From a virus: 38,180 nt of DNA. Shown here piece after piece: positions 6,956-24,281 of this stretch (positions within the stretch are counted from its first letter, which is position 1; each line of letters begins with the position of its first letter). A model generated the notes under the pieces. The model was given only the letters and a program-made list of their open reading frames with translations. It did not search any database and was not told where the DNA came from. The stretch covers positions 1-38,180 of the IMG/VR virus record IMGVR_UViG_3300046009_006369. The stretch is one strand, 5' to 3'. Position numbers and translations under genes: made by a program.

Positions 6956-7759
6956 TTATCCTACCATAAAATCTATAGGCAATTCATAAGAAGTCAAGAG
7001 TTCCATTTCAATTGCTTGAATCTCTGCTTGCGCTTCTTGATATATTGCTGCTCCCTTGAGCGTGATACCGCCAGGGAGCTGAACGCCGTCATATTTTGCC
7101 ATATTTGCTCCCCATTGTCTTTTAATGAGTGCTATTATGTATTTTCTTAATAGACGGTCGTTATAAATTTCAGTATATTTATCCGGGTCTAAAAGAACAA
7201 AGGCTTCAATTACCATGTATTGTCCTACACGCAAATCTGCCTTTGTACCAATAATGTGTAATCGGTTTGTTACTTTACTAAATGTAATACTTTTTTCTGG
7301 TTGGAAAAAATCTTGAATTAATTTAATATATCTTTTGGCAGAATCATAAGATGCTAAACCAAGAGAGGGACTTCCTCCTAAACCACGATTAATTCCAAAG
7401 TAGTCAGTTAACGCAAGTTGATAACGAATATCAAACATGTCCACGCTAGTAAGATTTCCGAATTGAAATACTTTAACAACGCTTAGTATATCATTTCCTG
7501 TAGGACCATCTCCCCCCGGTCCATTTGTTGGACCGATATCTCCGGTTTCAATATATCCGCGGTCTATATCAGTCTGGGTCAATTGATATTTAAAATATGC
7601 CCGTTCTACTCCATCAAAATGTCTTTCAGCAAAGAATTGAAGTGCTTCATCAACTCTATCTTCACATTGCTGATAATCGACATTTATTTTAACTACGGGA
7701 TGACCTAATGCTCTTAAGGCATAATCTATTAAATCTTCCTTCGATGAAAGTAGTCCCAT
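6956..7759 (-). CDS. 13: Neck protein gp13 (head completion)
   Basis: This is the head-proximal neck ring subunit, acting with gp14. It has 267 residues (T4: 309). Recognisable family segments are the start MGLLSSKEDLIDYALRALGHPVVKINVD, then QCEDRVDEALQFFAERHFDG (about 31-50), the FGNLTSVDMFDIRYQLALTD block, and LLRKYIIALIKRQWGANMAKY with the LPGGITLKG segment near 215-235. It heads the gp13-gp20 block and follows the fibre cluster, as gene 13 follows wac in T4. Its ribosome site AAGGAG lies in the right arm of a perfect inverted repeat that also contains a late promoter, so translation probably depends on which promoter made the mRNA (see the hairpin entry). Confidence 0.92.
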   Translation of the reverse strand: MGLLSSKEDLIDYALRALGHPVVKINVDYQQCEDRVDEALQFFAERHFDGVERAYFKYQLTQTDIDRGYIETGDIGPTNGPGGDGPTGNDILSVVKVFQFGNLTSVDMFDIRYQLALTDYFGINRGLGGSPSLGLASYDSAKRYIKLIQDFFQPEKSITFSKVTNRLHIIGTKADLRVGQYMVIEAFVLLDPDKYTEIYNDRLLRKYIIALIKRQWGANMAKYDGVQLPGGITLKGAAIYQEAQAEIQAIEMELLTSYELPIDFMVG

Positions 7760-7800: not shown

Positions 7801-8358
7801 TTACGCCGGTTTTTGTTGTTCGGGTTTTGGAGGAGGCGCCGGCGGGTCGTGTGTAGTAACAGGAACCTGTTCTAGATCTTTATATGAAACATTTTCGATA
7901 TAATATCTTCTTGTTATGGGTGAAACTGCTTCATCCGGTGTAGATGGTTTATAATTCAAGAATCCTGGCATTTGCAATGGACAATTAAGTTTTGGGTAGT
8001 CTAGTTTACTGTACTCATCACCCTCAGCAACTAACCAAGTGCCTTTTTTGTCACCGCAACCACATCCACCGCAATAATGTTTACCCGGTGTAGTGCTTTC
8101 CTTCAAGTGTTCGCATGGAGGAAGTGGACCACCTTGTGCTTGATTTCCAAAACAACTTAAAACTCTGAGTTGTTTTATTGGTTTATTTACTTTTTCATTT
8201 TTAAAACCACGGGAAGCAATAGCCGTAGCAAAACTTTGTATCATTCCAATTTTATTGCTTATGGTATTTTCTTGTGGTTTAACTTGTTCTTTTCGAAATT
8301 CTATTTCACTTTGTTTATTGTTTTCGCTCATATTATTTTTCCTACAATTACACCCCAT
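7801..8358 (-). CDS. Small Cys-rich conserved phage protein, putative metal-binding
   Basis: The function is not recognised. The protein has 185 residues. The N-terminus MGCNCRKNN has a CxC pair. A central block carries LSCFGNQ...GGPLPPCEHLK (about 68-86) and the cluster HYCGGCGCGDKKGTW (about 94-108), then YSKLDYPKLNCPLQMPGF. Nine cysteines and a histidine in a compact central region suggest zinc or iron-sulfur binding, but no named domain is certain. The C-terminus is Pro/Gln/Lys-rich and probably disordered (PPAPPPKPEQQKP). There is no signal peptide or membrane segment. It has its own late promoter and a strong GAAGGAG site, and sits between the Cys-rich adhesins and neck gp13. It may be a minor virion protein or an assembly factor for its Cys-rich neighbours; this is inference. 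Confidence 0.8.
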   Translation of the reverse strand: MGCNCRKNNMSENNKQSEIEFRKEQVKPQENTISNKIGMIQSFATAIASRGFKNEKVNKPIKQLRVLSCFGNQAQGGPLPPCEHLKESTTPGKHYCGGCGCGDKKGTWLVAEGDEYSKLDYPKLNCPLQMPGFLNYKPSTPDEAVSPITRRYYIENVSYKDLEQVPVTTHDPPAPPPKPEQQKPA

Positions 8359-8374
8359 AATATAACTCCTTCAG

Positions 8375-8382
8375 TATTTATG
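8375..8382 (-). promoter_or_regulatory. Late promoter (CATAAATA) for the small Cys-rich gene
   Basis: This one-mismatch form of the T4 late consensus is followed by CTGAA and then GGAG, and lies 16 nt before the ATG at 8358. It overlaps the TAA stop codon of the preceding 510-residue gene (8380-8378). The predicted start, base 8369, is again the first G of the Shine-Dalgarno sequence. Confidence 0.6.
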
Positions 8383-9910
8383 TCAAGATAATTTTTCTAA
8401 AGAAAAGCAAAGAAAGTCTTTGATTTATTCCAGCAATAATTTCTGTACCATATTCTGTTATATTTGAATAATTTAAATATTGAGAATAAATTAAACTATT
8501 TGTTCTTAGAGTTGAAGTCATACAAGGTAATTTTGATGTAATAATAATATCTCTTAGTATTTTATTTTGAAGATATTGATTTGCAAAAAATTCTAATTCA
8601 AAAATAGACGGAATGTAAAAATCCATAAAACCTTTTCTATTTTTACCAGTTATACTATTTGTTAATAGTGTTTTAATTCCATAAAAAGAAACATTATCAC
8701 CATAACAATTATAAAATCCGTCATAGATTGATGTCTGTGTGGATGAAACATTTAATGTTTCATTTAATTCAACAAATGTTGTTGTATATAATTGAGGTTC
8801 TATTAATAGTGCCCACTTTTGATCAATTTTGGTTCCAGGACCGTTTGAAGTTGATTTTATAGTTTTTGGTTGTGATATTTTTTCAGATCTATTTACATAA
8901 AGATTTGAAGAAGTAGAAGAAATGGGCGAACCCATATTATACATTCCTACGAATATTCCACCTTTATAAAAATCTCCAATTGAAAGTTTCAAAGAATCAA
9001 ACTCTGTTAAATTCATTTGTTCGGGTTCAATTAAACGAATACCCTCTTTTACTGGAAGAGATGGTTTCAATAAATGATCATAAATTTTTAAATCTCCTTG
9101 AGTCTCTATCCAATATCCATCTTTGCATTTGTTCTGTGTAGTGTATGATACAGAGAAAGTATATCCATCATTTTCTTTTATTGTTTCAAAGCAAGATCCA
9201 TAAGGTTCATTTGTTTCATTTTCTGTTTTTGTAACCATCAATGCTGCAATTGATGGTGATGTACAATTTGCTTGACTATTTTCTGGAATTAAATTTCCGT
9301 TACAAAGTTTTCCGGGAGAGTATACAGAAGAATAAGAAGAAGAACTTAAAGTTTCACAATCTTGTTCTGTGCAAACATTACTACAAGTAATACCGAGTGG
9401 AATATTTAATTCATCTGTATAAATGTAACAACAAGATCTGGGAACTCTTACATCAAAATTGCATACAGTTTCTCTTATAGTTCCGGGTTCGTATTGTTTA
9501 AGACAAAAAGATATTGCCTCTGCTTCATTAATAAAAGTTGAAGAAGATGGACATTTTCCTTGTGTCCATTTTCCACCAATTCTATTACACTCGCATTCTG
9601 TAATATTGTCTGTTAATCCTTTTGTAGATAAACTAATTGGTTTATCACATTCATAATTTGGTGGAGTTGAATACAATTCTGTTTCGTCAAAATTATTTGC
9701 AGAACAACTACAGCAACAACCAGTTGCGCCTACTGTTGGACAATTTATTTCATCAATTGAACCATAATAAAAATTTCCTCCGCTTTGAAAACATTCTAAA
9801 AATGTTTTTTGAGTTTTTTCTCCCAGAGAATCACAACAAACCCCTGTAGATTTTAATTCGGGAGAATAATCTATTGTACTTTTTGTTCTTGTTCTAAATT
9901 GAATACTCAT
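8378..9910 (-). CDS. Cys-rich protein with divergent Lcl-type (DUF1566) C-terminus
   Basis: This 510-residue probable virion adhesin has no N-terminal collagen-like stretch. Cys-rich segments begin at once: TGVCCDSLGEKT...C...GGNFYYG (about 22-50), GCCCSCSANN (about 64-73), ECECNRIGGKWTQGKC (about 105-120) and SCCYIYTDE, with further CxxxC pairs. The second half resembles the Lcl C-terminal domain of its larger neighbours: IGDFYKGGIFVGMYNMG (about 310-326) corresponds to their IGDIYDNAIVIGIFN, and MDFYIPSIFELEFFANQ (about 427-443) to their DWYIPSYDELAFIA. The following YWSST motif is absent or degenerate (IYSQYLNYS), and the end RLSLLFFRKI is only vaguely like the usual R.RPVR. It may be a reduced paralogue. 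The start ATG 9910 has only a weak upstream site. Confidence 0.8.
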   Translation of the reverse strand: MSIQFRTRTKSTIDYSPELKSTGVCCDSLGEKTQKTFLECFQSGGNFYYGSIDEINCPTVGATGCCCSCSANNFDETELYSTPPNYECDKPISLSTKGLTDNITECECNRIGGKWTQGKCPSSSTFINEAEAISFCLKQYEPGTIRETVCNFDVRVPRSCCYIYTDELNIPLGITCSNVCTEQDCETLSSSSYSSVYSPGKLCNGNLIPENSQANCTSPSIAALMVTKTENETNEPYGSCFETIKENDGYTFSVSYTTQNKCKDGYWIETQGDLKIYDHLLKPSLPVKEGIRLIEPEQMNLTEFDSLKLSIGDFYKGGIFVGMYNMGSPISSTSSNLYVNRSEKISQPKTIKSTSNGPGTKIDQKWALLIEPQLYTTTFVELNETLNVSSTQTSIYDGFYNCYGDNVSFYGIKTLLTNSITGKNRKGFMDFYIPSIFELEFFANQYLQNKILRDIIITSKLPCMTSTLRTNSLIYSQYLNYSNITEYGTEIIAGINQRLSLLFFRKIILT

Positions 9911-9922
9911 TTTTATTCTTTA

Positions 9923-9930
9923 TATTTAGG
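9923..9930 (-). promoter_or_regulatory. Weak late-promoter-like element (CCTAAATA)
   Basis: TCCTAAATATAAAG overlaps the TAA stop of the 1597-residue gene and lies 13 nt before the ATG at 9910. It differs from TATAAATA at two bases, and no good Shine-Dalgarno sequence follows. Its position copies the stronger stop-overlapping CATAAATA elements elsewhere in the window, which is the main reason to list it. Confidence 0.25.
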
Positions 9931-12900
9931 AACCACATGGTGGATAATTATTACATTCTGGGCATAACATTTCTACACAAGAACCATCTTCTAATGTAAC
10001 CCTTTTTGTGTTTTCGGTTGTAGTTAGTCCTAACACACAAGACTCAGCCAGATTTGTTCTTTTTGGATAATGAAGTGAAAATTCGTCCCTATAGCAAACT
10101 GCACCACCCCCAACAAAATTTCCTCCATTACCGGGAACATCAGTACAAGGATCAGCAACTATACATCCATTTACTCCATTTACTGGCGGACAACAGAAAA
10201 AACTTCCATTTCCTGTTTGCCATAAATCACACACACTAACATTTGCTCCCGTTGATGTAGAATCCCAAAGACACCTTCCTCTTTCAAATCTAGATGTGTC
10301 TTCACCTGGACCAATGTATGTTCTGTTTTCACAACCACACTCATTTGGATCATAAGGAAAACAATTCATATCTTCCGCAGTAAGTAATTTTGCCCAACCA
10401 GGCCAACATGAACCATCTCCAGTATTATTTCCTAGAGTTAATTGACAATTTTGTTCATTACCCCATAAGCAGTCAGCATCACAATCCCTGCACGATGAAT
10501 TTCTTGTTCCGTAAATTGGAACAACTATTGTCATTGATCCCGGTGAAGGTTGATTGCATATATTTTTATGATATTTTGTAAACGAAGAGTCTTTCCAAGC
10601 TTCTCCATTATTAAAAGGTAATCCTTCATAAAAAACATTAGCAGTCGGGAAAGTACTCATATTATAACGAAGATTTCTTCCCAATATTCCTCTTTTGAAT
10701 GTTCCTTGATCGCCAGGTTTACTATGATATATTTCTCTTATCAAATCCATTAGTTCTTCTTTTGGATTAATAAAATTACAACTGCCCCCTGACCATTGTA
10801 TTTTTCCAGTAAACCCTTCCGCACCCCCTTCACATCCCAAAAAATCCGTTAAATTTGCATTCCAATTGCTATTTTCAAGATCTCCTTCGTCAGAATATAA
10901 AACTGTACCAACTGCATTTATTTGATTCCAACCTTTTCCTACACTAAATATTCTAGAAAACTCATAGATTCTATTAGACTCAGACTCTTCAGATTCGGAA
11001 TTCCATCCGCCTTCTGGTATTGACCAACCAGAATAATAACAGGAAAAGGATGAACCATCAAGTAGTCCATACTCAAACCCTTGAAGTGGTTTTAATGCTG
11101 CATTATAAATGTAAGCATCAGATACCATTGTATATGGATCATATAAAATATATCCTGGCACTTCATCAAAAGTAACATTTAAACAAGATAAGACCGAGTA
11201 TATAGTTTCAGTACAACCAAAATATCTTGAATGACATGCACATTTTCCCGGCAAAGTAGATATGTTTTCAGAGCCAGGAGGAGAACAACCCATAGGGTTT
11301 CCGTAAACAGATTTTTTATAAGTAATCCAAGGAGAATTTCCTAAAGTTCCTAATTGTTTATCTAATGTTTCTGAAATTTTTGTATTAAATAATGTTTTAT
11401 TTTGTTTATATTTTGAGAAATAATTTTTCCACCAATATGGACCTGTTTGACCACCCCTAAAAGAGTTTATCATATTGAGAATATCATCATATGGTAATAA
11501 ATTTAAATTTCCAGAAACCCATTTTTTAAGTTCAGACAAACATCCCCTTGCTTGATTTGTATATGTAATTCTACCCCAAATTGGAGGAAATGGTGCATAA
11601 TTACCTTGTTTTATAGTTTCTTGATATGGTTCTACACGAGAAAATCCTAAACCAACATTATATTCTGATGCTAAAAAACTCCACCAAGGTTCAACATCAC
11701 TGGGTGTTGTATCTTCTTCTTCAATTGGGTCACAAAGTGTAGCAATAGAAAGATAATCTCCAGTATAACCAAATCTTTTCAAGCAATTTGTTTTATTTTG
11801 TTGTTCGTTTTGCTCAGAATTTGTTTTTGCATATGAACCTATATAAGAACAATAAAATGTTCCTCCGGCCATTACTATTGAACCGTTATCATTATATTGC
11901 TTATACGCAAAATTCATCAACGGATTTTGTGCTGCATCTACATTTCCTACAATTTTTTTAGGATTATTTTCTGCAATCCAAGGCAATGCACTAAAATTTT
12001 CTAAGTAATAATATCCTCTTTGTTCATCATAATTCATTTCTGCTATGGGTTTTTCTTGATCTCTTGGATAATCACCTATTCCAACATCAGGAACAATTCC
12101 TCCCCATTCGACGGTAATACCTTGTGTGGATAAATCTAATAATCTTTTCTTTTCTGGGGTTACTACTATTGCAGATCTATATGGAGCTTGTCCGGCATGT
12201 ATGTTGTGTTCAAGCCATAAACCATACTCATCGTTAGGAATCCAATTGTTTTGTTGACTTATATTTAAGTTTACTCCCGGAACATTTGGATTATAAAATT
12301 TTCCGGGTCTATATGGATTTACTTGTGCTACATCAGGAAAACACCAAAAACATGCCACAAATTCAGTTGGTCCTACACAACCATCTACTGCACATGTGGA
12401 ATTTTCTGCTCCAACAACTCCTCCTTGTTCAACACATACACTTGGAATTAAATCCTGACAAGTGACATCTCCATCAAAACTAGTAAAACAACATGTTCTT
12501 GGAGTATCTTGATTTTGACAATTATATGTTGAGCAATTAGTTCCATCTGGTGCTCTAGTTCCACCCGATGCAGCACAATCTTCTGGTGTTTTTTCTGTGC
12601 ATTGTCCATTATTGCAACAAGCAACTGTTGGTGGTGGTGGTTCTACACAATTAAAATCGGCACAATCTCCTTCACCTTTAATAACTCCACCCAAATCTAA
12701 ACATTGTTGTTGGGTTTCTGTTTGAACACAAACATTATTCAAACAACAAATAATATTTCCCTCATTGCCACATGCATTTGGAGTACAAATTGATCCATAA
12801 GGACCCGGAGTACCACTCAATGATTCACAGGTACATGGATCTCTAAAATAGCATTCTCCTGTGTTTTCACCATCGGGTGTTATTGGATTGCAGCATCTAA

Positions 12901-14719
12901 CAGTTGGTCCTGCAAATGGTTCACAATAACATCTTCTCACATCTTCGCCAAATATATCACCATCTGAATTATTGTACTCACAAAGAGAACCATTTGGATT
13001 TGGTGTTCCTCCTTGTTCTACACACCACTGTACAGTAACATTTTGACAAGTAAAACTATAACCACAGTCATCACAATAGGAGTTGTCATCAGGATTAGTT
13101 TCTACCTGTAAAAAGCAACACCCGACCAACGGATCTGTTGGACATAAGCAAGAACAATTAAATTCATTGCATTTTTCATTTTCGCCTGCAAATTTTCCAA
13201 CAATATTTGGTTGATTTGCTAATGTTGAATAATTATCACAATAATATTTTGAAACTCCATCAATGCATCCGGCACTTTCTCCAGTTTGACTATTACATAA
13301 ACAACAAGAACCAACTACATTGATATCACAGCATAATTTATTTGCAGTACAATTACCATTTTTAATTGCAACTCCACCTAAAACTTGCTCACATTGTATT
13401 CTTGTATAATTATTTCCTAAACAGACACCATCTTTACAACAAGCAACTTGTTCTTTGCATGGATCAAAACAGAATCTACCATCAGAAATATTTTCTGCCC
13501 AGTTTTCGCCATCGGGATTGTTTGGATATGTGTTGCATGTTATATCGGAATAAAATTGTCCACCAAACTGTTCACATTCACTAATTGAAACATTTTCTAA
13601 ACACTTTCCTGATGTGCAGCAAACTCCGGGATTCGTAAAGCATGTGTCTGTGCAGGATTTAAGTGGTCGAAATACTCCACTTAATTTATCACATGTTTCT
13701 TTTGTAACATATTCTCTGCATTTTGTTTGATTGCTTGGATATTCAATATAACAACAAGATCCAGTATTTATTGCAGGTTCACATGTTTCTACATTTTGTA
13801 AATCTAAACCTCTCTGTGATACTGTTGCATACCAATTTATTCCACCATCAAATGTTAAAATATTTACTAAACTTTTACCACAGGTTAGGTAGTTTTCACC
13901 GGGTTCAAAATATACATTCTCTGGAAATTTCCAAATTCTATCTGATTCTATCAAAAGAACAGCAGTTACTATTTCATTTGTTTTGAATGATCCGGTAAAT
14001 CCTGCAATTCCTATTGGGGTTTTAACAATATAAAAGGATGAATCTTCTATATTGACATATATTCCTTGTGTAGTTCCTTCTGCAAAATTTTCTAATTCCC
14101 CATATATTCCAACAAGTTGTCCTTCTTTTACAGGACCAACTGTTTTTACAACAGCGGCATCGTTTAAATAATTTCTATTTCTAAAATCTAAATTAGCAAT
14201 TCTACCTTCAGTATAAGCACTAATTTTTACATCTGTGCTAGATGCTAAATCTTGTTGTTTTAGATACATTAAGGTATCTGCGGACAAACCGGGTGAATCT
14301 AAATTACCAGCAACTTCATCATAAATTGTATCAATGTACAAATTGTTGTCGTCTATAGAAGTTACCAAAGATCCTAAAGCACTTATACCCTTTATATTTA
14401 ATTGACCTTTCAGTGGAGTATCTGTTAATATTCCATTATAATTTCCTGAAATTTCAATAGTGTTTTGTGCAAAAGTTGTACCAGTATAACCAGTTGCACC
14501 GTAAAAATTTCCAATAACTTCGCCAGTACTGCCATCAGAATAATAAAAAGTAATTTTTCCTATTTCTGCCTGACTTAAAACTACATATTTTCCATAATTT
14601 CCCGTTGCACCTGTGGCACCACTAATACCGGGATTTCCGGTAGGACCAATAGAACCAGTAGGACCTGTTGGCCCCTGTGGTCCCGGTATATTTCCTCCTA
14701 AAATAGCACTACTATACAT
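9926..14719 (-). CDS. Giant collagen-like, Cys-repeat tail fibre/adhesin (1597 aa)
   Basis: This is probably a tail-associated fibre or adhesin; no enzyme domain was recognised. The N-terminus has a Gly-X-Y stretch (PGPQGPTGPTG...GATGATGNYG, about 12-43), expected to form a collagen-like triple helix. Residues about 45-310 resemble fibre modules of its neighbours (EGQLVGIYGELENF...IGIAGFTG). Residues about 320-800 hold around nine CC-led units of the type ACC.NG.C...TPEDC...GGT...GT.C.....C, probably small disulfide-linked or metal-binding domains. The last 800 residues, rich in Trp, Tyr, Asn and Cys, match nothing I know and lack the Lcl motifs of the 960- and 1081-residue neighbours. It has its own late promoter and GAAGGAG site. 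No signal peptide is visible, as expected for a virion protein assembled in the cytoplasm. Confidence 0.85.
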   Translation of the reverse strand: MYSSAILGGNIPGPQGPTGPTGSIGPTGNPGISGATGATGNYGKYVVLSQAEIGKITFYYSDGSTGEVIGNFYGATGYTGTTFAQNTIEISGNYNGILTDTPLKGQLNIKGISALGSLVTSIDDNNLYIDTIYDEVAGNLDSPGLSADTLMYLKQQDLASSTDVKISAYTEGRIANLDFRNRNYLNDAAVVKTVGPVKEGQLVGIYGELENFAEGTTQGIYVNIEDSSFYIVKTPIGIAGFTGSFKTNEIVTAVLLIESDRIWKFPENVYFEPGENYLTCGKSLVNILTFDGGINWYATVSQRGLDLQNVETCEPAINTGSCCYIEYPSNQTKCREYVTKETCDKLSGVFRPLKSCTDTCFTNPGVCCTSGKCLENVSISECEQFGGQFYSDITCNTYPNNPDGENWAENISDGRFCFDPCKEQVACCKDGVCLGNNYTRIQCEQVLGGVAIKNGNCTANKLCCDINVVGSCCLCNSQTGESAGCIDGVSKYYCDNYSTLANQPNIVGKFAGENEKCNEFNCSCLCPTDPLVGCCFLQVETNPDDNSYCDDCGYSFTCQNVTVQWCVEQGGTPNPNGSLCEYNNSDGDIFGEDVRRCYCEPFAGPTVRCCNPITPDGENTGECYFRDPCTCESLSGTPGPYGSICTPNACGNEGNIICCLNNVCVQTETQQQCLDLGGVIKGEGDCADFNCVEPPPPTVACCNNGQCTEKTPEDCAASGGTRAPDGTNCSTYNCQNQDTPRTCCFTSFDGDVTCQDLIPSVCVEQGGVVGAENSTCAVDGCVGPTEFVACFWCFPDVAQVNPYRPGKFYNPNVPGVNLNISQQNNWIPNDEYGLWLEHNIHAGQAPYRSAIVVTPEKKRLLDLSTQGITVEWGGIVPDVGIGDYPRDQEKPIAEMNYDEQRGYYYLENFSALPWIAENNPKKIVGNVDAAQNPLMNFAYKQYNDNGSIVMAGGTFYCSYIGSYAKTNSEQNEQQNKTNCLKRFGYTGDYLSIATLCDPIEEEDTTPSDVEPWWSFLASEYNVGLGFSRVEPYQETIKQGNYAPFPPIWGRITYTNQARGCLSELKKWVSGNLNLLPYDDILNMINSFRGGQTGPYWWKNYFSKYKQNKTLFNTKISETLDKQLGTLGNSPWITYKKSVYGNPMGCSPPGSENISTLPGKCACHSRYFGCTETIYSVLSCLNVTFDEVPGYILYDPYTMVSDAYIYNAALKPLQGFEYGLLDGSSFSCYYSGWSIPEGGWNSESEESESNRIYEFSRIFSVGKGWNQINAVGTVLYSDEGDLENSNWNANLTDFLGCEGGAEGFTGKIQWSGGSCNFINPKEELMDLIREIYHSKPGDQGTFKRGILGRNLRYNMSTFPTANVFYEGLPFNNGEAWKDSSFTKYHKNICNQPSPGSMTIVVPIYGTRNSSCRDCDADCLWGNEQNCQLTLGNNTGDGSCWPGWAKLLTAEDMNCFPYDPNECGCENRTYIGPGEDTSRFERGRCLWDSTSTGANVSVCDLWQTGNGSFFCCPPVNGVNGCIVADPCTDVPGNGGNFVGGGAVCYRDEFSLHYPKRTNLAESCVLGLTTTENTKRVTLEDGSCVEMLCPECNNYPPCGS
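14591..14695 (-). repeat. Collagen-like Gly-X-Y coding repeat (1597-aa protein)
   Basis: This stretch of 9-bp-period sequence encodes Gly-Pro-Thr, Gly-Ala-Thr and related triplets at residues about 9-43. It has the same style as the repeats opening the 1081- and 960-residue proteins. Confidence 0.8.
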
Positions 14720-14739
14720 TAATTAATCATCTCCTTCAC

Positions 14740-14747
14740 TATTTATG
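14740..14747 (-). promoter_or_regulatory. Late promoter (CATAAATA) for the 1597-aa fibre gene
   Basis: CATAAATA is followed by GTGAA and GGAG, and it overlaps the TAA stop of the 1081-residue gene (14745-14743). Predicted start is base 14734, the first G of the Shine-Dalgarno sequence. Layout is nearly identical to the element at 8375-8382. Confidence 0.6.
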
Positions 14748-17700
14748 GGCAAGTACATGAACGGCATTTTGTGAAATCGTAATTATTATAAGCATCTATG
14801 ATTTCCAAATCTGAACACCCGACGACTATTGGAATTCTACGAACAGGTCTTAAACGAGCAGTAGAAGAAGATCTATCTAATGCTACAATTGCTCCATATT
14901 TATTGTTTGAATCTTTAGTAAGATTCTGAGCCAGCATTTTTTGACCATTACATATTTGATGCGAAAGATCGAATGCCTGATTATCTGTTAATCCAAATTC
15001 TCCACCAACAAATCTTGATTTAATATTTATTGAGGGACTTGTCGATTCTATTTCATAATATTTTTTTAATGTATGGTTGTTGGAGTTCCAAGATGTTACT
15101 CGGCAAACACTAGTAGAAGACCAGTATAATGCGGAATCTAATGTTTCAATTACTCTATGACCATCATCACCAGTGACTAATATTGATTGATTTAGGGAAT
15201 CAACATTTTTAGCAATATAATTTAATTCAATAATACTCGGAATATACCAGTCACTATAACCATTATAATTTACATCGTTTAATTTTGATATTTGACGAAT
15301 TGCAGTATTTTCGGGATTCAGATTTTCCCATAATTGTGAATAATAATATTCAAAATTTTCTTTACTTGATACGATTTCAGATCTATTTGCATTGGGTACA
15401 TTGTTCCAAAGATTTATATTTTGACTCACAAATCTATCGTATGATTTTGTATCAGTTCCATCATTGTCATAATCTCTGAACCAAAATTCAGGTTTAGTTT
15501 TTGAATACGAATCGTGTATTCTTGTATTCAATAGACCATCTACAGGAGAAGTTGAAATTGGTTCTATAAAGTAATTTGGTATATTTGTTTCCGAACCCGG
15601 TCCAACTCTAGATTCAAACATATCTGACCATTTTACTTGTGTAAATTTTGCTGACGCATAAGTTATTTCAACATCACTTGGTGCTAAAATTAACGCCCAA
15701 ACTTGGTGTATAGCTCTTGACCCATAAAATTTTTCTGCCAAATATGAATACAGACCAGCACCTACACTAAATTGTGTTGGTAAACCGTTAACCTCCGTCA
15801 TAATATTACAAGATTGATTATCAAAGGAAGCATTTAGTGTTGGTTCAAATGAATTTGTTCCAGAAAAGAATGCTTCATCGGGCCATGTATATTCTACTTC
15901 ACCTGTAACTTTTGTTACTTTTGCTTTGTACAGTTGTTGTATATAAGACGCTCCAATTTTTATAAAGCATTTATTTGCATATTCTTTTTGTGTAGGTACT
16001 CTTGGGTGGGTTCTTACAAATGAATATTTCCAATAAGCATCTGTTGTTGGATTAGAACCCTGATATGGTTCGCATGATTTAAATTTCCATGTTTCTGCGT
16101 CGTCACCAAAAACTTGTCCTCTCGGATTGCACAAACATTCAAGTGGTTCTCCTAACATTAAGTTTGGTTGATTGAAAGTATTGCAAGAATTTGGATAACC
16201 AATTATTCCAACTAAATAACCTCCAGCTAATTTAGTACCTATTTCATAACATGGATCATTTAATGTTAGTCTGCAAGTAGTTTGTGGAACTCCATTTTCA
16301 GTCGTATAATACTCAGAAGAAAAAGAAACACCACAGCAACTTGTAGTTTCACATGTTGTTGCATATCCCATAAATGTACCATTTTGTTCATAACATTCCA
16401 GTGCAGTTATATTGTTTTCGCAAGAACCTGTTCTACAACAAGCTCCAGTTGCAAAGTTACAACAACTTTGTGCGAATTGATTAGTACAACCATTTGCATT
16501 AAATACTGCACCGGGAATAGAATCACATTCAATTTTTGTTAGTTCTAAACAATTTCCTTTGACACAACAACCTCCGGTTTTTCCTATATCACATTGATTT
16601 GTCGGACAAGAAAATATAGTTGATCCCTCGTATATTGTGTTTGAACAATATTGGTCAGGGAAGAAAGCACCACCAAATTTTTCACATGTTTCTATATTTG
16701 TGTTTGTGCATTTTCCATTTACACAACACGCACCTGTTGGATAACAATCAGTAGACCCTGCTCGTTCTACGCAAAGTTTTTTACTAAATTTACCACCAAT
16801 AGAAACACAGTAATCCTGACTCACATAATCTGAACATTTATTATCTTCTGCATTACTACCCAAGCAATAGCAACAAGAACCCATTTTATCTAAACTGAAT
16901 AATTGTGGTAGAAATTGATTTCTTCCTTTTTCAAAACTTATACCAAGTGGTAATAGTTGAATATCAACTGTTCCCGTTTGACCATAAAAATATTTTTGTT
17001 GTAATTCAAAATATGGACTTATTCGTGTATTCCATGCACCCAATAGTTGTGCCAAATCATCACCATCAACATTACCATCTGAATTTAAATCTGCCGAAAT
17101 GCCAGGATTAAGTCCCCAACTAGATAGTAAAATTGCTAAATCATTTCCATTTACACTACCATCTTTATTAAAATCCGCAGAATTTATTGGTATATTTCCA
17201 TCAAATCCTGCTCCGGGTATTGTGTATGTGCCGCTTGAAGATTGAAATTTTGGAATCCAATTTTCAATAATTACAGATTTACCAGAAGTTATTCCTAACA
17301 AGTTTTGAGTAAAATGAACAATAGTGGAAAAATTTTGATCTGTAGTTCCGTCCCAAATGTTTCCAGTATTTCCAAATATTGGTTGTCTGAATGTATTAAA
17401 AGCAACACTGAGTTGTTTTGTTATGTCATCCCAATAGGTTCCTGTTGCTCCCCTTGCATCTCCCCCTGCACCAGAGACATAAAGTATCTCACCTGTATTT
17501 CCCATCGGAAAAGTATCAAAAGTTTTTCCAACAAGGGTAATATAATTAGCGTTTACTATTTTTGCGATTATATCATTTGTTGGAGAATCAAATTGAAAAA
17601 CTCGAACAAAAGGAGATTCATTATAACTTATTTTTATTTCATTTGATGCATTTTCAGGAGGTTCTGCAAAAAATGGAGAAAATGCAGTTTCACCTAACCC

Positions 17701-17988
17701 AAAAGTAGAACCACTTAGTATTATAAAACTATCTGTAAAGTCTATCGGAGGATTACCTGTTAGTCCTATTGTTACAGGCCCGGTGTTTCCAAGATAGAAG
17801 GTAACAGAACCGGGATCAGAATAAGTAGCACCAGTTATTCCATAACCAGTATTTCCTTTGTTTCCAACAACACTAGGCCCTGTTGGTCCAGTGGGTCCTG
17901 TTGGGCCTGTAGGACCGGTTGGTCCAGTAAAACCAGTTAGTCCCGAGTCGTATTTGAAATTTATGTTAGAACTACCAATTATGCTCAT
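14743..17988 (-). CDS. Collagen-dockerin-Cys repeat-Lcl-type adhesin (1081 aa)
   Basis: This is a probable host-binding tail protein. Domain order: short anchor MSIIGSSNINF; collagen-like G-P-T run (about 16-53); fibre-like beta region (about 55-265); dockerin-type paired calcium loops D272-N274-D276-N280-D283 and D300-N302-D304-D308-D311 (about 268-320); Cys-repeat region with units such as GACCVNGKCTNTNIETCEKFGG (about 368-556); and a C-terminal domain with IGTKLAGGYLVGIIG (about 583), SDWYIPSIIELNYIA (about 910), ALYWSSTS (about 952) and ARLRPVRRIPI (about 1043). The last set matches the DUF1566 / Lcl C-terminal domain, which in Legionella Lcl follows a collagen-like region and binds host polysaccharide. 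The start ATG overlaps the preceding stop (ATGA). The binding target is unknown. Confidence 0.87.
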   Translation of the reverse strand: MSIIGSSNINFKYDSGLTGFTGPTGPTGPTGPTGPTGPSVVGNKGNTGYGITGATYSDPGSVTFYLGNTGPVTIGLTGNPPIDFTDSFIILSGSTFGLGETAFSPFFAEPPENASNEIKISYNESPFVRVFQFDSPTNDIIAKIVNANYITLVGKTFDTFPMGNTGEILYVSGAGGDARGATGTYWDDITKQLSVAFNTFRQPIFGNTGNIWDGTTDQNFSTIVHFTQNLLGITSGKSVIIENWIPKFQSSSGTYTIPGAGFDGNIPINSADFNKDGSVNGNDLAILLSSWGLNPGISADLNSDGNVDGDDLAQLLGAWNTRISPYFELQQKYFYGQTGTVDIQLLPLGISFEKGRNQFLPQLFSLDKMGSCCYCLGSNAEDNKCSDYVSQDYCVSIGGKFSKKLCVERAGSTDCYPTGACCVNGKCTNTNIETCEKFGGAFFPDQYCSNTIYEGSTIFSCPTNQCDIGKTGGCCVKGNCLELTKIECDSIPGAVFNANGCTNQFAQSCCNFATGACCRTGSCENNITALECYEQNGTFMGYATTCETTSCCGVSFSSEYYTTENGVPQTTCRLTLNDPCYEIGTKLAGGYLVGIIGYPNSCNTFNQPNLMLGEPLECLCNPRGQVFGDDAETWKFKSCEPYQGSNPTTDAYWKYSFVRTHPRVPTQKEYANKCFIKIGASYIQQLYKAKVTKVTGEVEYTWPDEAFFSGTNSFEPTLNASFDNQSCNIMTEVNGLPTQFSVGAGLYSYLAEKFYGSRAIHQVWALILAPSDVEITYASAKFTQVKWSDMFESRVGPGSETNIPNYFIEPISTSPVDGLLNTRIHDSYSKTKPEFWFRDYDNDGTDTKSYDRFVSQNINLWNNVPNANRSEIVSSKENFEYYYSQLWENLNPENTAIRQISKLNDVNYNGYSDWYIPSIIELNYIAKNVDSLNQSILVTGDDGHRVIETLDSALYWSSTSVCRVTSWNSNNHTLKKYYEIESTSPSINIKSRFVGGEFGLTDNQAFDLSHQICNGQKMLAQNLTKDSNNKYGAIVALDRSSSTARLRPVRRIPIVVGCSDLEIIDAYNNYDFTKCRSCTCP
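17029..17187 (-). other. Dockerin-type duplicated Ca2+-binding domain within the 1081-aa adhesin
   Basis: Two copies of the pattern D.N.DG.V(N/D)G(N/D)DLA.LL..W occur, at residues 272-291 and 300-319. Positions 1, 3, 5, 9 and 12 of each loop are Asp or Asn, as in EF-hand-like dockerin type I loops. The terminal Trp and the LLG.W ending resemble dockerin-like pairs common in planctomycete secreted proteins. No cohesin domain was recognised in the window. Confidence 0.8.
17830..17943 (-). repeat. Collagen-like Gly-Pro-Thr coding repeat (1081-aa protein)
   Basis: Near-identical 9-bp units encode GPT triplets at residues about 16-53, with seven consecutive GPT-type triplets in the centre, then degenerate Gly-X-Y (GNKGNTGYGITG). 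Slippage between units could change fibre length. Confidence 0.85.
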
Positions 17989-20867
17989 GTTATTTCATCC
18001 TCGGATAATTTAACCAGTCTCCAATATTTATTATTACTGGAGTTGTCTAATTGATATTTTTTGTCGCAACGAATCATTTTAATTGGTCTTACTTTATACT
18101 CATTTGTGGTTCTATTTGCTTTCGCAGTAGTAAACAATGTTTCTTCTCCATCCGAATTAAAATTAATTGCCCATGCCAGAGAACCATGCGTTAAACCACT
18201 TGGATGATTTAAAATCATTTCATTTTCAGTTATATTTAATGAACCAGTAGAAGACCAATACCAACCATCCATTGGTGTTCCTGAGTTTTCCAATAGTTTA
18301 GAATTGATGTTTATATCAGATGTCTTAGTACAAGTTGTGGCAATAAACGCAAGTTCATCATAACTTGGTATATACCAATCACTTATGTACTTGTTTGTAA
18401 CGGGATAAGTTCTGTTAAACAAACTTAAAGCCCTAGAACAAGACATATTATCAGATGATTCGGTTGGAACATATGAAGTTTGCGTGAAATTGTTTCCTGT
18501 TAATCCTGCATGATAAGCATATTCTGCATTTATCATTCTTGCAGTATTCAATATTCCAAAATTTCTAGTCCATTTTCCATTGAATGATATATTAGATCTA
18601 TTTTCTTGCCAAGTATTTGCATCATTTTGTTTTCGAATAAATGCACAATCAAAGAATGAATAAGTGTTTAAGTTATTTTTTGTTTCTTCAATATTATAAT
18701 CGTAAACATACCCCTCTTTAAACTGTAAATTGTCTATACTAAGTTCAGAAATTTTTCTTGTGAATGGATTTAGCAATGGACCCCAAGCATTTGCTCCATT
18801 GTTCCATATGAATTCAAACTTATTTGCTTTATTTGAAAACTCTATGATTTCATTGTTTTCGTTTAAAGTGATTGGATGTAAAGACATCAATACAATGTAT
18901 GAATCAGAATTTATATCACAAAGATTATTTCCAGTAAACCCATAACCACTAAAATCGTATGTCGAAACATATCTCTGACAAACTGATTCTTTTTCGTGTC
19001 CTTCAGTTAGTGTATTAAAAGTTGCATCTAAAGATTCAGAAAATACTGAATTTCCTAAACACTCTTGTTGATTTGGATTGAAAATTCCAATAACAATTGC
19101 ATTGTCATATATGTCACCAATCTTTAAAGATTGACCATCTACAACATCGAGACATGGTATAGTTTTTCCTGAACATGCAAATGTTTGACAATTTGTACCA
19201 TCACCAAAATAAGTTTTATTGTTTTCTATACATGTTTTTCCAGATACATTATTTTCACATGTCACCCCGGAATCACAACAACCACCAGTTCCGCCATAGC
19301 ACACTAACACTCCACTATTAGTAGAACATTTTGTACCTATTCCCTGAAAATATCCGCTGCAATTTTCTAAAGTTGTTTCTATACATGATCCACGCCCATC
19401 ACAACATGCACCTAAGTTTTTAAATGCGTTTTCACAACTAAAATCTAAACAGGTTTGTTTTGTATTATTAAATGGATTCCAAACAAAACTTAGATTAGAA
19501 TCATTTGCAATCGTGGCGCAATCGCAATATTTCAAAGATTGACATGTTACTCTATTATTTCTGCTATCTTGAAGACAACAAGCACCCAAAGAATTGCAAA
19601 ATGTTTGACCTGCCAAATATGTTATACCTGATATAAAATAACCATTGCAAGTTGAGTTTAATGATTCTTCTGCCGTACATCCTTGAGTGCAACACACACC
19701 TGTAGTGATGCCTAAATTTTTACCAAAACTTGGATTTAAAATTGATGATAGTAATTGCACATTTTGTTGACAATGATATAAATTGATTGAATCAGGATCT
19801 TTATTTGTAATTTTTATGGAATTAGAATCTAAGTTGGTTAAACCATAACCAATTATGTTTCCATACCAACTATTTCCAATAGAAATAAAATTAATAAATG
19901 TATATGAATTAGCAGTGGTTGGTAAACACGGAATGTCTGCTAAAGGCCAATTTATAGGCGAAACATCATCATATAACCAGTTAGCAAAAGTTGGTTTATT
20001 GGTAGATGTTACATATTCAACTGGAACGCTTGAATTATTTCCGGGTGGAATTATTACAGTTATGGAATATGAATTATTTGTATTTTGTGGTTTTTTTAGT
20101 GCGATAACATACCTAGGATTTTGAGGAACACCATCTACTTGATTTTCTAGATATGTCGGATATAAGAAAAAATGATTTCCTTGTGTGTGGTCAATCCACC
20201 ATGTTTTAGTATAGTTTGTAAGATTGTCGTGTGTTAATCCTAAAAATCTTTGTACCACATTACTTGTCTGTGCATCAATACTTCTTGTTGAGGAATTATA
20301 AGAAGAACCAGTAATTCCTCTTTGAGTATTACCTAAAACATTTTGTACTAATTCACCATCTGATCCACCATTTAATTCTAAAAATGCAACATTAATTAAA
20401 CTATAGGAAACATCTATAGATTTACCGTCTTCTGAATAATTAATAGTTACAAATGGATCACTGTTTGTAGATATATTTCTAAATGTAACCTTATCAATTG
20501 TATAGGTTACTCCTGCTTCATAATCATAATAACTTTGTGTATTTAAATCTTGTTTTAAAACATTAGGTATTGCAGTATCTAAACTCAATCCTTCAATTTG
20601 AAGATATGCATAACCAGTTAATCCTTTTATTTCACTAAAACTTTTTACAATCGTTCCATTATCAAAAAAATGATTTAATTTTCTGTCTGATTCATATGTT
20701 ATATTTTGAATACTGGGGCCAGTTCCACCAGTATTTCCATAAGCAGTAGCACCAGCATTTCCTGTTGGTCCTGTTGGGCCAGTGGAACCTGTTGGTCCAG
20801 TAAAACCAATTAAAAAAGGTATTTTTTCTATTGGTATGTTGCTACTACCGTATATAAATTTTGACAT
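17985..20867 (-). CDS. Collagen-Cys repeat-Lcl-type adhesin (960 aa)
   Basis: This is a paralogue of the 1081-residue protein and a probable tail adhesin. Order: anchor MSKFIYGSSNIPIEK; collagen-like run GFTGPTGSTGPTGPTG (about 21-52); fibre-like region to about 385; Cys-repeat region (about 387-567) with units such as GACCDGRGSCIETTLENCSGYFQGIGTKC; and an Lcl/DUF1566-type domain with IGDIYDNAIVIGIFNP (about 578), SDWYIPSYDELAFIA (about 825), GWYWSSTGS (about 866), AWAINFNSDG and YKVRPIKMIRC (about 921). It lacks the dockerin pair. The start ATG shares one base with the preceding stop (TAATG), and its 3' end overlaps the next gene by 4 nt (ATGA), so the trio 379-960-1081 looks translationally coupled. 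Carbohydrate binding is inferred from the Lcl family. Confidence 0.87.
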   Translation of the reverse strand: MSKFIYGSSNIPIEKIPFLIGFTGPTGSTGPTGPTGNAGATAYGNTGGTGPSIQNITYESDRKLNHFFDNGTIVKSFSEIKGLTGYAYLQIEGLSLDTAIPNVLKQDLNTQSYYDYEAGVTYTIDKVTFRNISTNSDPFVTINYSEDGKSIDVSYSLINVAFLELNGGSDGELVQNVLGNTQRGITGSSYNSSTRSIDAQTSNVVQRFLGLTHDNLTNYTKTWWIDHTQGNHFFLYPTYLENQVDGVPQNPRYVIALKKPQNTNNSYSITVIIPPGNNSSVPVEYVTSTNKPTFANWLYDDVSPINWPLADIPCLPTTANSYTFINFISIGNSWYGNIIGYGLTNLDSNSIKITNKDPDSINLYHCQQNVQLLSSILNPSFGKNLGITTGVCCTQGCTAEESLNSTCNGYFISGITYLAGQTFCNSLGACCLQDSRNNRVTCQSLKYCDCATIANDSNLSFVWNPFNNTKQTCLDFSCENAFKNLGACCDGRGSCIETTLENCSGYFQGIGTKCSTNSGVLVCYGGTGGCCDSGVTCENNVSGKTCIENNKTYFGDGTNCQTFACSGKTIPCLDVVDGQSLKIGDIYDNAIVIGIFNPNQQECLGNSVFSESLDATFNTLTEGHEKESVCQRYVSTYDFSGYGFTGNNLCDINSDSYIVLMSLHPITLNENNEIIEFSNKANKFEFIWNNGANAWGPLLNPFTRKISELSIDNLQFKEGYVYDYNIEETKNNLNTYSFFDCAFIRKQNDANTWQENRSNISFNGKWTRNFGILNTARMINAEYAYHAGLTGNNFTQTSYVPTESSDNMSCSRALSLFNRTYPVTNKYISDWYIPSYDELAFIATTCTKTSDININSKLLENSGTPMDGWYWSSTGSLNITENEMILNHPSGLTHGSLAWAINFNSDGEETLFTTAKANRTTNEYKVRPIKMIRCDKKYQLDNSSNNKYWRLVKLSEDEIT
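18025..18032 (-). promoter_or_regulatory. Possible late promoter (AATAAATA) for the 1081-aa adhesin
   Basis: An AATAAATA element lies inside the end of the 960-residue gene, 37 nt before the next ATG at 17988. This form fits the looser NATAAATA pattern reported for T4-like cyanophage late promoters. Chance occurrence in AT-rich coding DNA cannot be excluded. Confidence 0.25.
20712..20807 (-). repeat. Collagen-like Gly-X-Y coding repeat (960-aa protein)
   Basis: The 9-bp-period units encode GPT/GST/GPT and then degenerate Gly-X-Y triplets at residues about 21-52. Confidence 0.8.
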
Positions 20868-22006
20868 TACATTAATAACCTTGTTTCTACAGCAGTCAAT
20901 CTAGTTTCTAAATCATCAAGAATTGTATTTACATTGTCAAATGTTATTGCAGTTCCTAATTTTACTGTTTCTGCTATGACTTCTTTTATTGAAACTGTTT
21001 GTGGAACATTTACAGATAATTTATTAGAAGTTAATTGAATTGCAGGAACAACGGATACACTTACTGAATTTCTATTTACATCTAATATACTAAAGGGTGA
21101 AGGAACTGTTATTATTGGTGTGTAAATCGAATATACACTTGATGAATCAATTTCAATTGTGCCTCCTTGAACTACAAGTTTTTGTGATGTTGTAGTTGTT
21201 GCTGCAACACCAGACCACTTTACATAGTACTTTGTGTCAGAACTAGTAGCAACTACAATTCCAACCGTGTTAGGATCATCTGTTCTATAAATTGTTTTAT
21301 TAATGTTTCTGCTATCTGCAAAGTATCCATTTTTTACTGTTAACTCTTCAACAAAACCAAATTGTTTTCCATATTTCTTGTAAAACTCGTCATACAATCC
21401 AATTCTTAATTCATGAGAAATTCTAGCATCAACATAATTATTTGGAATATCTGTTGCATTTCCCGGAGTTTCATTGGTAGATCTTAATATGTAAATAACT
21501 TGTCCAATTGGTTCTTCACCAAATGCTTCTACCTCACCTCCAAGTCTATAACCAATATAATTCATTACAGTTCCAGTATAACTCCCGTGAGGTGCAACTT
21601 GATATATCGGTTTAATTATATTTCCAATTTCAGAAGGTGCTTCTACTTGAACTTTACCTGATGTAATTCCACTTAAAAAGTAAACATCCGCGCCACCAGC
21701 ACCACCTGTTGCTCCTGTAATTGTGTATATTGAACTTGATGGCAAAACTATAGATCCATAAATTACAACATTTAAAGTTCCAGCAGTTTTTGTTTCAACA
21801 ATACCAAATACTTCTGCTGTGTTTGAAAATGTGGCAATTGATTTTTGAAATTCACCAGACAACCCATTGTAAAATATAACATCTCCTGCGGTTATGCCCA
21901 AAGAATAACTTCCATTGGGAATGGTTGTCATTAAACGAGAACCACCTTGTGTTATTGAAACAAATGTTTGGGAAGATTTAATATTACTACTACTAGAACA
22001 GGTCAT
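20867..22006 (-). CDS. Tail fibre-like virion structural protein (379 aa)
   Basis: No named family was recognised with certainty. The start MTCSSSSNIKSSQ echoes the GSSNI anchor of the collagen adhesins downstream. Residues about 40-125 (GDVIFYNGLSGEFQKS...TAEVFGIVETKTAGTLNVVIYGSI...VYFLSGITSGKVQVEAPSEIGNIIKPIYQV) resemble a beta-rich module repeated in the 754-residue neighbour and in many phage fibres. GATGGAGG is a short Gly-rich hinge. The last 25 residues (NVNTILDDLETRLTAVETRLLM) form a heptad pattern, suggesting a trimeric coiled coil. Start ATG 22006 has GAGGAAAAATAA upstream. It overlaps the 960-residue gene by one base. A fibre or fibre-connector role is inferred. Confidence 0.8.
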   Translation of the reverse strand: MTCSSSSNIKSSQTFVSITQGGSRLMTTIPNGSYSLGITAGDVIFYNGLSGEFQKSIATFSNTAEVFGIVETKTAGTLNVVIYGSIVLPSSSIYTITGATGGAGGADVYFLSGITSGKVQVEAPSEIGNIIKPIYQVAPHGSYTGTVMNYIGYRLGGEVEAFGEEPIGQVIYILRSTNETPGNATDIPNNYVDARISHELRIGLYDEFYKKYGKQFGFVEELTVKNGYFADSRNINKTIYRTDDPNTVGIVVATSSDTKYYVKWSGVAATTTTSQKLVVQGGTIEIDSSSVYSIYTPIITVPSPFSILDVNRNSVSVSVVPAIQLTSNKLSVNVPQTVSIKEVIAETVKLGTAITFDNVNTILDDLETRLTAVETRLLM

Positions 22007-22016
22007 TTATTTTTCC

Positions 22017-24281
22017 TCATATTGGGTAATCTGCATCTGCTACTATGTGATAAAATACATTATCATAATTTACCGCCCCACCGGCAATACAAACCTTTAT
22101 ACCATCTTTTGATGCATCAGTTACAACTGTGTCTGCACCTAATTTTGCAACTCTTGCAACCGAGTTATATCCTATCGTTCCTGAAGAATTTTTAAGATTT
22201 CTTCCAGAAGATCTATTGTAGGCATCATTTGAAGTTCCGGTTAAAGGTGAATAAACTGTAACTGAAGGAGTTGTTCGTAATTCATTTTCCCAAGGAATAA
22301 ATTTACACAAAGCATTTGGTAACAAAGTATAAGATAAAGTATTATATGTTGGGTCTTCTTTATTCACCATAGTAGAAAGACCTATTTTTTGATCCAAAGA
22401 ATATGTTGAATAATAATACTTTTTACAAAGTTTTAATCTTTCTTGAATATCTTTGTGTATATGTACTGGAGTATTTACAATTCCACCATATAAACAAACG
22501 GATGCTATACTTACAAATAAATTTGTTGATAGGGATACTGAATCTAAATTTGCTTTATTGATTAATGGTTTAAAATTAAATCCAATTTCAAAATAATCAT
22601 TTTCTAATGCAGAGCCGGGATTTGGTAAAGTTGGAACTTCATATTGAACTACAAATTTTTGCCAACTAGTATCCAACGAATGATTTTCCATTGTGTGGTA
22701 ATCAATTATTGTGGTTCCATTATACCTTGAAATATAACTTGAAATCTCATAATTAGAATTAGAGCATTTTGCATAAAAACTTAAAGTAATTGTTTGTGAG
22801 TCAAAAGATTTAGCATCTGGTAAAACATGACCAATTAAATGATGATCTATTCCGTAACCACCAGAGGCACCAGTACCACCACTCAATCCTAATGCTTTTA
22901 CATCAATATAATATTTTGGATTTCCTTCTACATCAGATTGTATATCAGCAAATTCTTGTCGTGTAATGTAATATGATTTTGCCGCTGTAGGACCAGAAAC
23001 ACCATCATGCCTTCTCCACATGTCAGCAAAACAAACACTGTTAATTTCGGTGTATGAAGAATCTCTTCCAACATCTGGTCTTTGCCAAATTGTAAAATCT
23101 CCGTTTAATAAAAGATTTTCTGTTTGGTTATCACTAGTTGAACTTACGGATGCACCCAACAGTCCACTATTTAAAGATTTTCTTGGATTATTTAGGATTG
23201 TAAATTTTCCTGCACTATATTGCATTCCAAAAACTTTTCCAGAATAATTGACATTAGAATCTACAACCAAATTACTGGTGTCCAATAGTGCATTGTAATC
23301 ATTCTTAAGATAATACACACCAACACCACTAGTCAACGCTAAATCTAAATCTCCACCAGTTGCAATTTCAAATATTGTATCTGAACCACTTGTAGTTTTG
23401 GATGCAATCACACCCACTGCAAAATCTTCTTCTCCACGAAGTTCTCCTGCATTTGTAGATTTACTTAAAAACCAACCTTGAACTATAGTTCTTCCATCCG
23501 GTGCGTTTTCGTTAAAATATTGTGTTAGTACTGGATTATATGATAAAACACTTCCAATAGACCATGAGGATGTTGTTGCTGTTGGAAGAACAACATAAAC
23601 TCTATTCATTCCTGTTGCACCAGAAACACCTGCTCCAGCACTTAAATAATTTCCTCTATAAGGCATTACCAATCCACAGTCTGCACTGATTCCAAGCAAA
23701 ACAGGCTTAGAAACATAACCAACTGTATTTGGTTCGGTTGAAGATATTCCACCAGTTATAGATTCAGATAGGAAATAGAAACAACCGGGATTTAGAGTTT
23801 CACCCCCATTTATTTGCGTGAAATCACCTGTAACTTTTCCTAAAAGTGTAATGTAGGAAGCAGTAATACCAAGGTTTGATATAATTCCAATACTTTCCGC
23901 AGTTTGTTGTGTATTTGCTATTGCTGCTGTATAACCCGAATCTACTATTCTTACAGGCATACCAAAACTAAATCCGGGTGTACCTGAAGTGATTCCAAAT
24001 ACTTTATATCCAACATTTGGTAAATCAACTAAACCTGTAAATTTAATTTCTCCTCCAAATGTTAATCCTGCTATAACATTTCCAGAGGTTCCTCCAATAT
24101 TTAATGTAAGAATTCCATCTGTTCCTGTTGATGCTAATACACCATCACCGCTTGTTGCTCCGTAAACCTTTAAAAGATTTAATTTTGCAATAATTTCTGT
24201 GTTTTCTTTTACATACCAATCATAAAATGTGGTATTTGATTGGAGTGTGTCGATGATATATGTGTTATTTGTTACAGGCAT
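22017..24281 (-). CDS. Tail fibre protein with carbohydrate-binding-like domain (754 aa)
   Basis: This is a probable receptor-binding fibre. The N-terminus TLQSNTTFYDWYVKENTEIIAKLNLLKVYG is a typical virion-attachment start in marine T4-like fibre proteins. Two beta-rich repeat modules follow, for example ESIGIISNLGITASYITLLGKVTGDF...CFYFLSESITGG...GYVSKPVLLGIS (about 110-215) and VGVIASKTTSGSDTIF...GVYYLKND (about 275-330). Residues about 385-605 (NLLLNGDFTIWQRPD, FADMWRRHDG, TLSFYAKCSN, SWQKFVVQYEVP, FFEIGF-like strand, VCLYGG) have the layout of a jelly-roll carbohydrate-binding module found in phage fibres. A C-terminal domain (ERLKLCKKYYYSTYSLDQKIG...) of about 140 residues follows, as is usual after this module. 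RBS AGGAATAT. Confidence 0.85.
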   Translation of the reverse strand: MPVTNNTYIIDTLQSNTTFYDWYVKENTEIIAKLNLLKVYGATSGDGVLASTGTDGILTLNIGGTSGNVIAGLTFGGEIKFTGLVDLPNVGYKVFGITSGTPGFSFGMPVRIVDSGYTAAIANTQQTAESIGIISNLGITASYITLLGKVTGDFTQINGGETLNPGCFYFLSESITGGISSTEPNTVGYVSKPVLLGISADCGLVMPYRGNYLSAGAGVSGATGMNRVYVVLPTATTSSWSIGSVLSYNPVLTQYFNENAPDGRTIVQGWFLSKSTNAGELRGEEDFAVGVIASKTTSGSDTIFEIATGGDLDLALTSGVGVYYLKNDYNALLDTSNLVVDSNVNYSGKVFGMQYSAGKFTILNNPRKSLNSGLLGASVSSTSDNQTENLLLNGDFTIWQRPDVGRDSSYTEINSVCFADMWRRHDGVSGPTAAKSYYITRQEFADIQSDVEGNPKYYIDVKALGLSGGTGASGGYGIDHHLIGHVLPDAKSFDSQTITLSFYAKCSNSNYEISSYISRYNGTTIIDYHTMENHSLDTSWQKFVVQYEVPTLPNPGSALENDYFEIGFNFKPLINKANLDSVSLSTNLFVSIASVCLYGGIVNTPVHIHKDIQERLKLCKKYYYSTYSLDQKIGLSTMVNKEDPTYNTLSYTLLPNALCKFIPWENELRTTPSVTVYSPLTGTSNDAYNRSSGRNLKNSSGTIGYNSVARVAKLGADTVVTDASKDGIKVCIAGGAVNYDNVFYHIVADADYPI

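Follow-up and report, generated by a model that had tools for sequence, protein, structure and literature searches.

A putative adsorption cassette with conserved lectin-type heads and one exchanged fibre tip in an uncultivated T4-like phage

Location and conservation of the A–E array

Five adjacent genes (A to E) in the structural operon of an uncultivated T4-like phage probably form an adsorption cassette, in which A, B and D, fibres with nearly fixed lectin-type heads, would be combined with a fibre, C, whose exchangeable tip would set the host range. One locus separates fibres with fixed lectin-type heads from a fibre with a swapped tip, the common stalk evolving in concert, and this offers a testable account of how the host range of a phage lineage may shift when no retroelement is involved. 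A first, putative clue to which host this uncultivated T4-like clade infects may come from it as well.

The window, by which we mean the whole stretch of DNA analysed, is the complete IMG/VR record IMGVR_UViG_3300046009_006369 (38,180 bases). Its minus strand carries a T4-like structural operon in the order gp53-, gp25-, gp6-, gp7- and gp8-type baseplate genes, adhesin region, gp13, gp14, gp15, terminase, sheath, tube and portal. The array spans 7801–20867, directly before gp13, and the boundaries that an earlier note on this DNA had given for its four adjacent large genes (A to D) proved exact. The same note had placed these genes in the interval between gp8 and gp13; both flanking genes were recovered by profile, but the array does not fill the interval, in which three more genes separate gp8 from A, and E separates D from gp13:

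24963–26723, minus strand: gp8-type baseplate wedge, assigned at the level of profile comparison only
24295–24954, minus strand: 219-aa protein, like the N-terminal part of VrlC (phrog_358, 1.3e-9; weak hhalign)
22017–24281, minus strand: 754-aa tail fibre (phrog_4492 in the C-terminal half)
20867–22006, minus strand: 379-aa protein upstream of A, in several copies in some relatives (comparison with related contigs)
17985–20867, minus strand: gene A, 960 aa; collagen tract, shaft, degenerate six-Cys units, Lcl_C/DUF1566 head
14743–17988, minus strand: gene B, 1081 aa; collagen tract, shaft, dockerin insert, six-Cys units, Lcl_C head
9926–14719, minus strand: gene C, 1597 aa; conserved stalk and exchanged tip
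8378–9910, minus strand: gene D, 510 aa; Cys-rich N-terminal half, C-type-lectin/DUF1566 head, without collagen
7801–8358, minus strand: gene E, 185-aa Cys-rich protein (MGCNCRKNNM...)
6956–7759, minus strand: gp13, head-tail adaptor Ad2 (phrog_211 and profile comparison)

Pfam Phage-Gp8 gave no match with the wedge gene. The 379-aa protein is a probable fibre-type neighbour of A; in two contigs (L032 and L039, 1226–9999) three copies of it stand ahead of A, and the 219-aa VrlC-like gene is present twice. E sits between D and gp13 in those relatives that cover this stretch; it is 60–78% conserved, with a conserved start (MGCNCRKNN) and the motif CGGCGCGDK, adjoins gp13, and is perhaps a metal-binding protein.

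The earlier note had proposed searching viral contigs for the same domain order, and such a search recovered the order A-B-C-(C')-D-E, with the same orientation, wherever related contigs cover the region; adjoining gp13, it persists in contigs as low as 37% identity in A. A search of 50,697 phage records, a set that may exclude those closest to the window, gave no match for any of the five proteins, and no sequence relation of A–E to isolated phages was detectable. The terminases of cyanophage P-RSM4 and pelagiphage HTVC008M share 63% identity; that of the window is ~53–54% identical to both of them, 82–84% to those of the nearer related contigs and 62–77% to those of two more distant fragments. 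On this sequence basis we read the lineage as an uncultivated sister clade of the cyano- and pelagimyophages (Kyanoviridae). The cyanophage marker psbA is absent from two related records (G001 and G002).

Collagen tracts and six-Cys units

The earlier note had seen collagen stretches and tandem Cys repeats in various combinations in the four large genes. The features located were:

20745–20807, minus strand: A, GXX collagen tract, residues 21–41
19173–19694, minus strand: A, Cys-unit region, residues 392–565
17872–17943, minus strand: B, GXX collagen tract, residues 16–39
16336–16875, minus strand: B, six-Cys units, residues 372–551
12392–13756, minus strand: C, run of six-Cys units, residues 322–776

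Collagen was retained for A, B and C, with GXX runs of 7, 8 and 11 triplets, respectively (residues 13–45 in C; 0/2000 shuffles attained 7 triplets), and withdrawn for D, which has no such tract. The Cys repeat is strict in C and B (six and two CC..C..C..GG..C units; shuffled means 0.07 and 0.006) and only degenerate in A and D. Aligning the units of all relatives added a sixth Cys, the common form being CC-x(4-5)-C-x(7-9)-C-x(12-13)-C-x4-C, and the even number would fit disulphides. The N-terminal half of D is predicted with fair confidence (pLDDT mostly 70–90) to consist of repeated strand-helix elements. Cys makes up 3.5–6.3% of A to D and 4.3% of E; in the other sizeable proteins of the window it accounts for 0–2.0%.

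A Cys content as high as that of secreted proteins might suggest that A to D are produced during infection as decoys or other extracellular proteins outside the virion, and not as tail parts. We regard this as very improbable: the genes belong to the structural operon, with gp8 on one side and gp13 on the other, the collagen parts of the array proteins resemble phage tail fibres in profile searches, and the locus is regarded as tail fibres in published analyses (PMC7029224).

Gene C combines a fixed stalk with an exchanged tip

Along gene C three parts were distinguished:

13145–14719, minus strand: conserved stalk, residues 1–525, homologous to the A and B stalks
10040–12322, minus strand: tip, residues 800–1560, without recognisable relative among the related contigs
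9929–10039, minus strand: C-terminal tail, by eye resembling a ~35-residue tail common to otherwise unrelated tips

In a maximum-likelihood tree of the stalks, in which the long A and B branches may be joined falsely, A, B and C each formed a supported clade, and all three clades predate the contigs under comparison. As each clade is present in divergent contigs, the duplication is old. A, B and C are ancient tandem paralogues and probably trimeric fibres, each built of a collagen triple-helix tract, a shaft and then six-Cys modules of putative disulphide type.

Identity of C to its relatives was 30–70% along the stalk and fell to background beyond residue ~525, whereas A, B and D of related contigs are similar to the window proteins over their entire length. 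The C tips are unrelated types, among them proteins of 2,900–3,000 residues with PKD/Ig domains, and several of the types have a short C-terminal tail in common. No Lcl_C-type head appeared in C in any test made. The division of labour among paralogues that had been suggested for the array was borne out as a division between conserved A/B/D heads and exchanged C tips.

Two related records (G002 and G004) each carry two adjacent C genes, C and C'. Over codons 40–320, the C and C' stalks of G002 were 84–92% identical in DNA, compared with 52–79% for orthologues between G002 and G004. The tips of the two genomes pair by position (36–38%) and the stalks cluster by genome; the C stalks evolve in concert. 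The simplest account of this genome-wise grouping is gene conversion or recombination between adjacent C stalks; a recent duplication, after which matching tips were acquired in both genomes, is a less simple one. Recombination between homologous stalks would allow one C copy to stand in for another even as the tips diverge or get replaced. Between the window and its ~97% relative G001, the C tip had 12 non-synonymous and 7 synonymous codon changes as against 71 and 194 in A, B and D together (Fisher p 0.0026), a small sample of 19 tip codons from one genome pair. The exchangeable tip of C would be the likeliest determinant of host range; C tips could instead be enzymatic or protective and not receptor-binding.

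Lcl_C/DUF1566 heads of A, B and D

A DUF1566-like end had been described for three of the proteins, and heads were located in A, B and D:

18084–18452, minus strand: A, Lcl_C head core, residues 806–928 (DWYIPS, YWSST, KVRPIK)
15097–15309, minus strand: B, Lcl_C head core, residues 894–964
8390–9013, minus strand: D, predicted C-type-lectin-like head, residues 300–507 (structure model comparison)

The motifs YWSST and R.RPVR, which were part of that description, occur in A and B only. Sequence profiles support Lcl_C/DUF1566 heads at the ends of A and B. Pfam Lcl_C (PF07603) matched window B (E 2.6e-6, 28.1 bits) and window A (E 4.8e-4, 20.8 bits) below the gathering cut-off of 34.9, which one B orthologue exceeded (35.3 bits); at E 0.01 it matched 10/10 B and 8/11 A family heads. 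Within A, conservation is higher in the head than in the shaft. PDB sequence searches with the A and B head profiles gave no credible match, and no Lcl_C was found in T4, P-RSM4 or HTVC008M.

For D, a predicted head of this type is supported by profile and modelled structure. Pfam did not recover the head in window D, and Lcl_C was found in one of 15 family members (7.7e-4); hhalign related D to B (E 1.8e-6) and to A (8.3e-6) around DWYIPS, these E-values being per single pair and not per database. The comparison of the ends with Lcl that the earlier note had called for gave a usable result for D and none for A, whose AlphaFold2 head model was too low in confidence for use (pLDDT 37.5). The D model (pLDDT 64.3) aligned with 8q4e, the solved C-terminal domain of Lcl (Z 7.2, 119/131 residues, 3.4 A), and with 4eps (Z 7.4), values below 8 that may reflect just a common arrangement; ordinary C-type lectins scored Z 4.2 and lower. 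4eps was linked earlier to DUF1566 (PMC4159848), and the top viral-structure match of the D model was a phage DUF1566 protein. Foldseek of the D model against the PDB returned nothing at E <=0.001; the informative result came from this second alignment. In one contig (L026:2-3919), the D homologue is enlarged to at least 1305 aa with 126 Cys and two D-like copies.

As in Legionella Lcl, A and B begin with a collagen tract and end in a DUF1566-type head, and the D head is predicted to share the fold. The phage heads are divergent, a long shaft and six-Cys modules intervene, the phage collagen has 7–11 triplets only, and these are genes of a phage, whereas Lcl is an adhesin that a bacterium secretes. 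The earlier note's term, Lcl-like adhesins, went too far, because against the Lcl equivalog model NF046116, which requires 500 bits, B and C scored 10.5 and 11.2 bits in the collagen part only and A and D were unlisted.

The same note's idea of an Lcl-like array of several adhesins, in which A, B, C and D would each bind a different glycan as receptor, has in our estimate somewhat less than an even chance. The Lcl_C heads of A, B and D speak for it, as does the known role of DUF1566/C-type-lectin proteins in the tropism of other phages, the Bacuni phages among them (PMC8143477); like Mtd, such proteins are phage structural proteins with a head of C-type-lectin fold. Unlike these diversified proteins and typical receptor-binding ends, however, the A/B/D heads are conserved across contigs with wholly different C tips, and no diversity-generating reverse transcriptase (RVT_1) was found in four related records (G001–G004, of which G002 has 156.7 kb; the records may be incomplete). 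The Lcl binding lysines, moreover, are poorly conserved even within Legionella (PMC11162425), so that binding of sulphated polysaccharides by A/B/D is not implied. In the adsorption cassette that we favour, A, B and the shorter D would end in C-type-lectin-fold heads held nearly fixed, whose probable role is either to recognise a common surface glycan or to fasten the fibres to the particle.

T4 baseplate parts and the host recognition cluster

The array lies in the interval that in T4 holds gp9, gp10, gp11, gp12 and wac, yet no domain or profile similarity was detectable. In support of the earlier note, the gp9/10 N-terminal (PF07880), GP11 (PF08677) and gp12 Collar (PF07484) domains were absent from the window and three relatives, T4 as control being positive. 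Profile comparison likewise detected no relation of A/B/D to gp9–gp12, and the replacement of one particular T4 protein by each array protein was without profile support.

It is somewhat unlikely that A, B and D take over the structural roles of gp9, gp10, gp11 and the short fibre, forming a baseplate scaffold while only C and the 754-aa fibre contact the host. Their highly conserved heads, the conserved gene order and the missing gp9–gp12 domains would agree with such a scaffold, whereas collagen tracts and lectin-fold ends fit exposed fibres and a profile relation to gp9–gp12 is not detectable.

The claim that this phage in particular had replaced T4 parts could not be upheld. In the same interval, VrlC and a YadA-domain protein are encoded by cyanophage P-RSM4, whose entire record contains neither a gp11 nor a gp12-collar domain; a gp9/10-N match is retained elsewhere in P-RSM4. 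Between VrlC and gp14, pelagimyophages carry a hypervariable region called the "host recognition cluster", with an equivalent region in cyanomyophages, and collagen, Mtd-type and other binding domains were reported from their structural operon (PMC7029224). As the loss of T4 parts in this interval is common to marine T4-like phages, it is not special to the window phage. The array, between the 219-aa VrlC-like gene and gp13/gp14, matches the position of this cluster, which runs from downstream of VrlC up to the neck genes; both are variable and hold genes of fibre type. In contrast to the published cluster, a conserved A-B-C-D-E set is present here and no glycosyltransferase-type extra genes were recognised in the window interval. 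The kind of locus is already known; its contents, A–E, are new as judged by the phage records searched.

Origin of the modules and putative host

A DNA pattern for the six-Cys unit, with one common spacing, matched at least 119 bacterial genome stretches (~0.1 expected by chance in that genome collection, by our own estimate); among the matches listed, 65/80 loci belonged to Planctomycetota by title. The bacterial consensus is CCFxDGxC-x7-CxxxGGxxQGxGTxCxxxxC. A profile built from the phage units found 64/79 bacterial proteins and 0 shuffled ones, and the reverse search recovered the phage proteins. The unit thus appears, among the matches listed, to be mostly a Planctomycetota module. The Phycisphaerae (Planctomycetota) repeat proteins contain the same six-Cys unit; they are bacterial proteins, whereas here the unit lies between phage stalk and head or tip. 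B contains a further insert:

17023–17217, minus strand: B, type I dockerin insert with two Ca-loop-like repeats, residues ~258–322 (PF00404)

It scored 24.7 bits, above the cut-off of 22.9, was also found by a GC-type dockerin model, and is missing in three orthologues (L004, L005 and L007). Together, the six-Cys units and the dockerin point to secreted modules of Planctomycetota type, a putative hint at the host and no proof.

The cassette might accordingly mark Planctomycetota phages that borrowed or mimicked these modules, a reading compatible with the others but rather unlikely in our estimate. In its favour are the share of Planctomycetota loci given above, the mutual recognition of phage and bacterial profiles, and the dockerin insert. 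It is weakened by the presence of the unit in other phyla too, by the scope of the pattern scan (one spacing, the matches listed, several of the loci sharing a genome), and by a spacer-like (CRISPR-type) search of 20 kb of the window against 397 genomes of the Phycisphaerae-type class, which gave chance-level short matches only. No Lcl_C was found in six genomes bearing the six-Cys unit, so the heads are not traced to them, and a genome scan with C repeat peptides gave no confirmed match. Quite unlikely, in our view, is the fuller scenario of a Kyanoviridae sister clade that infects Planctomycetota (Phycisphaerae) and has built its attachment organ from secreted-protein modules of that host, with a stalk maintained by gene conversion and exchanging host-range tips.

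Further observations in the operon

Between gp25 and gp6 (29681–30484), the window encodes a 267-aa protein with a Q-rich collagen tract of 26 triplets. One contig (L006) has a 327-aa version with adjoining genes identical to those of the window, so the length of the Q-rich tract seems variable. The tail sheath (1766–2986) has only 406 aa, compared with 661–750 aa annotated in HTVC008M and P-RSM4. The genes gp14 and gp15 (5255–6954) are 85–86% identical to G001, while most of their neighbours are 96–100% identical, which suggests a recombination block.
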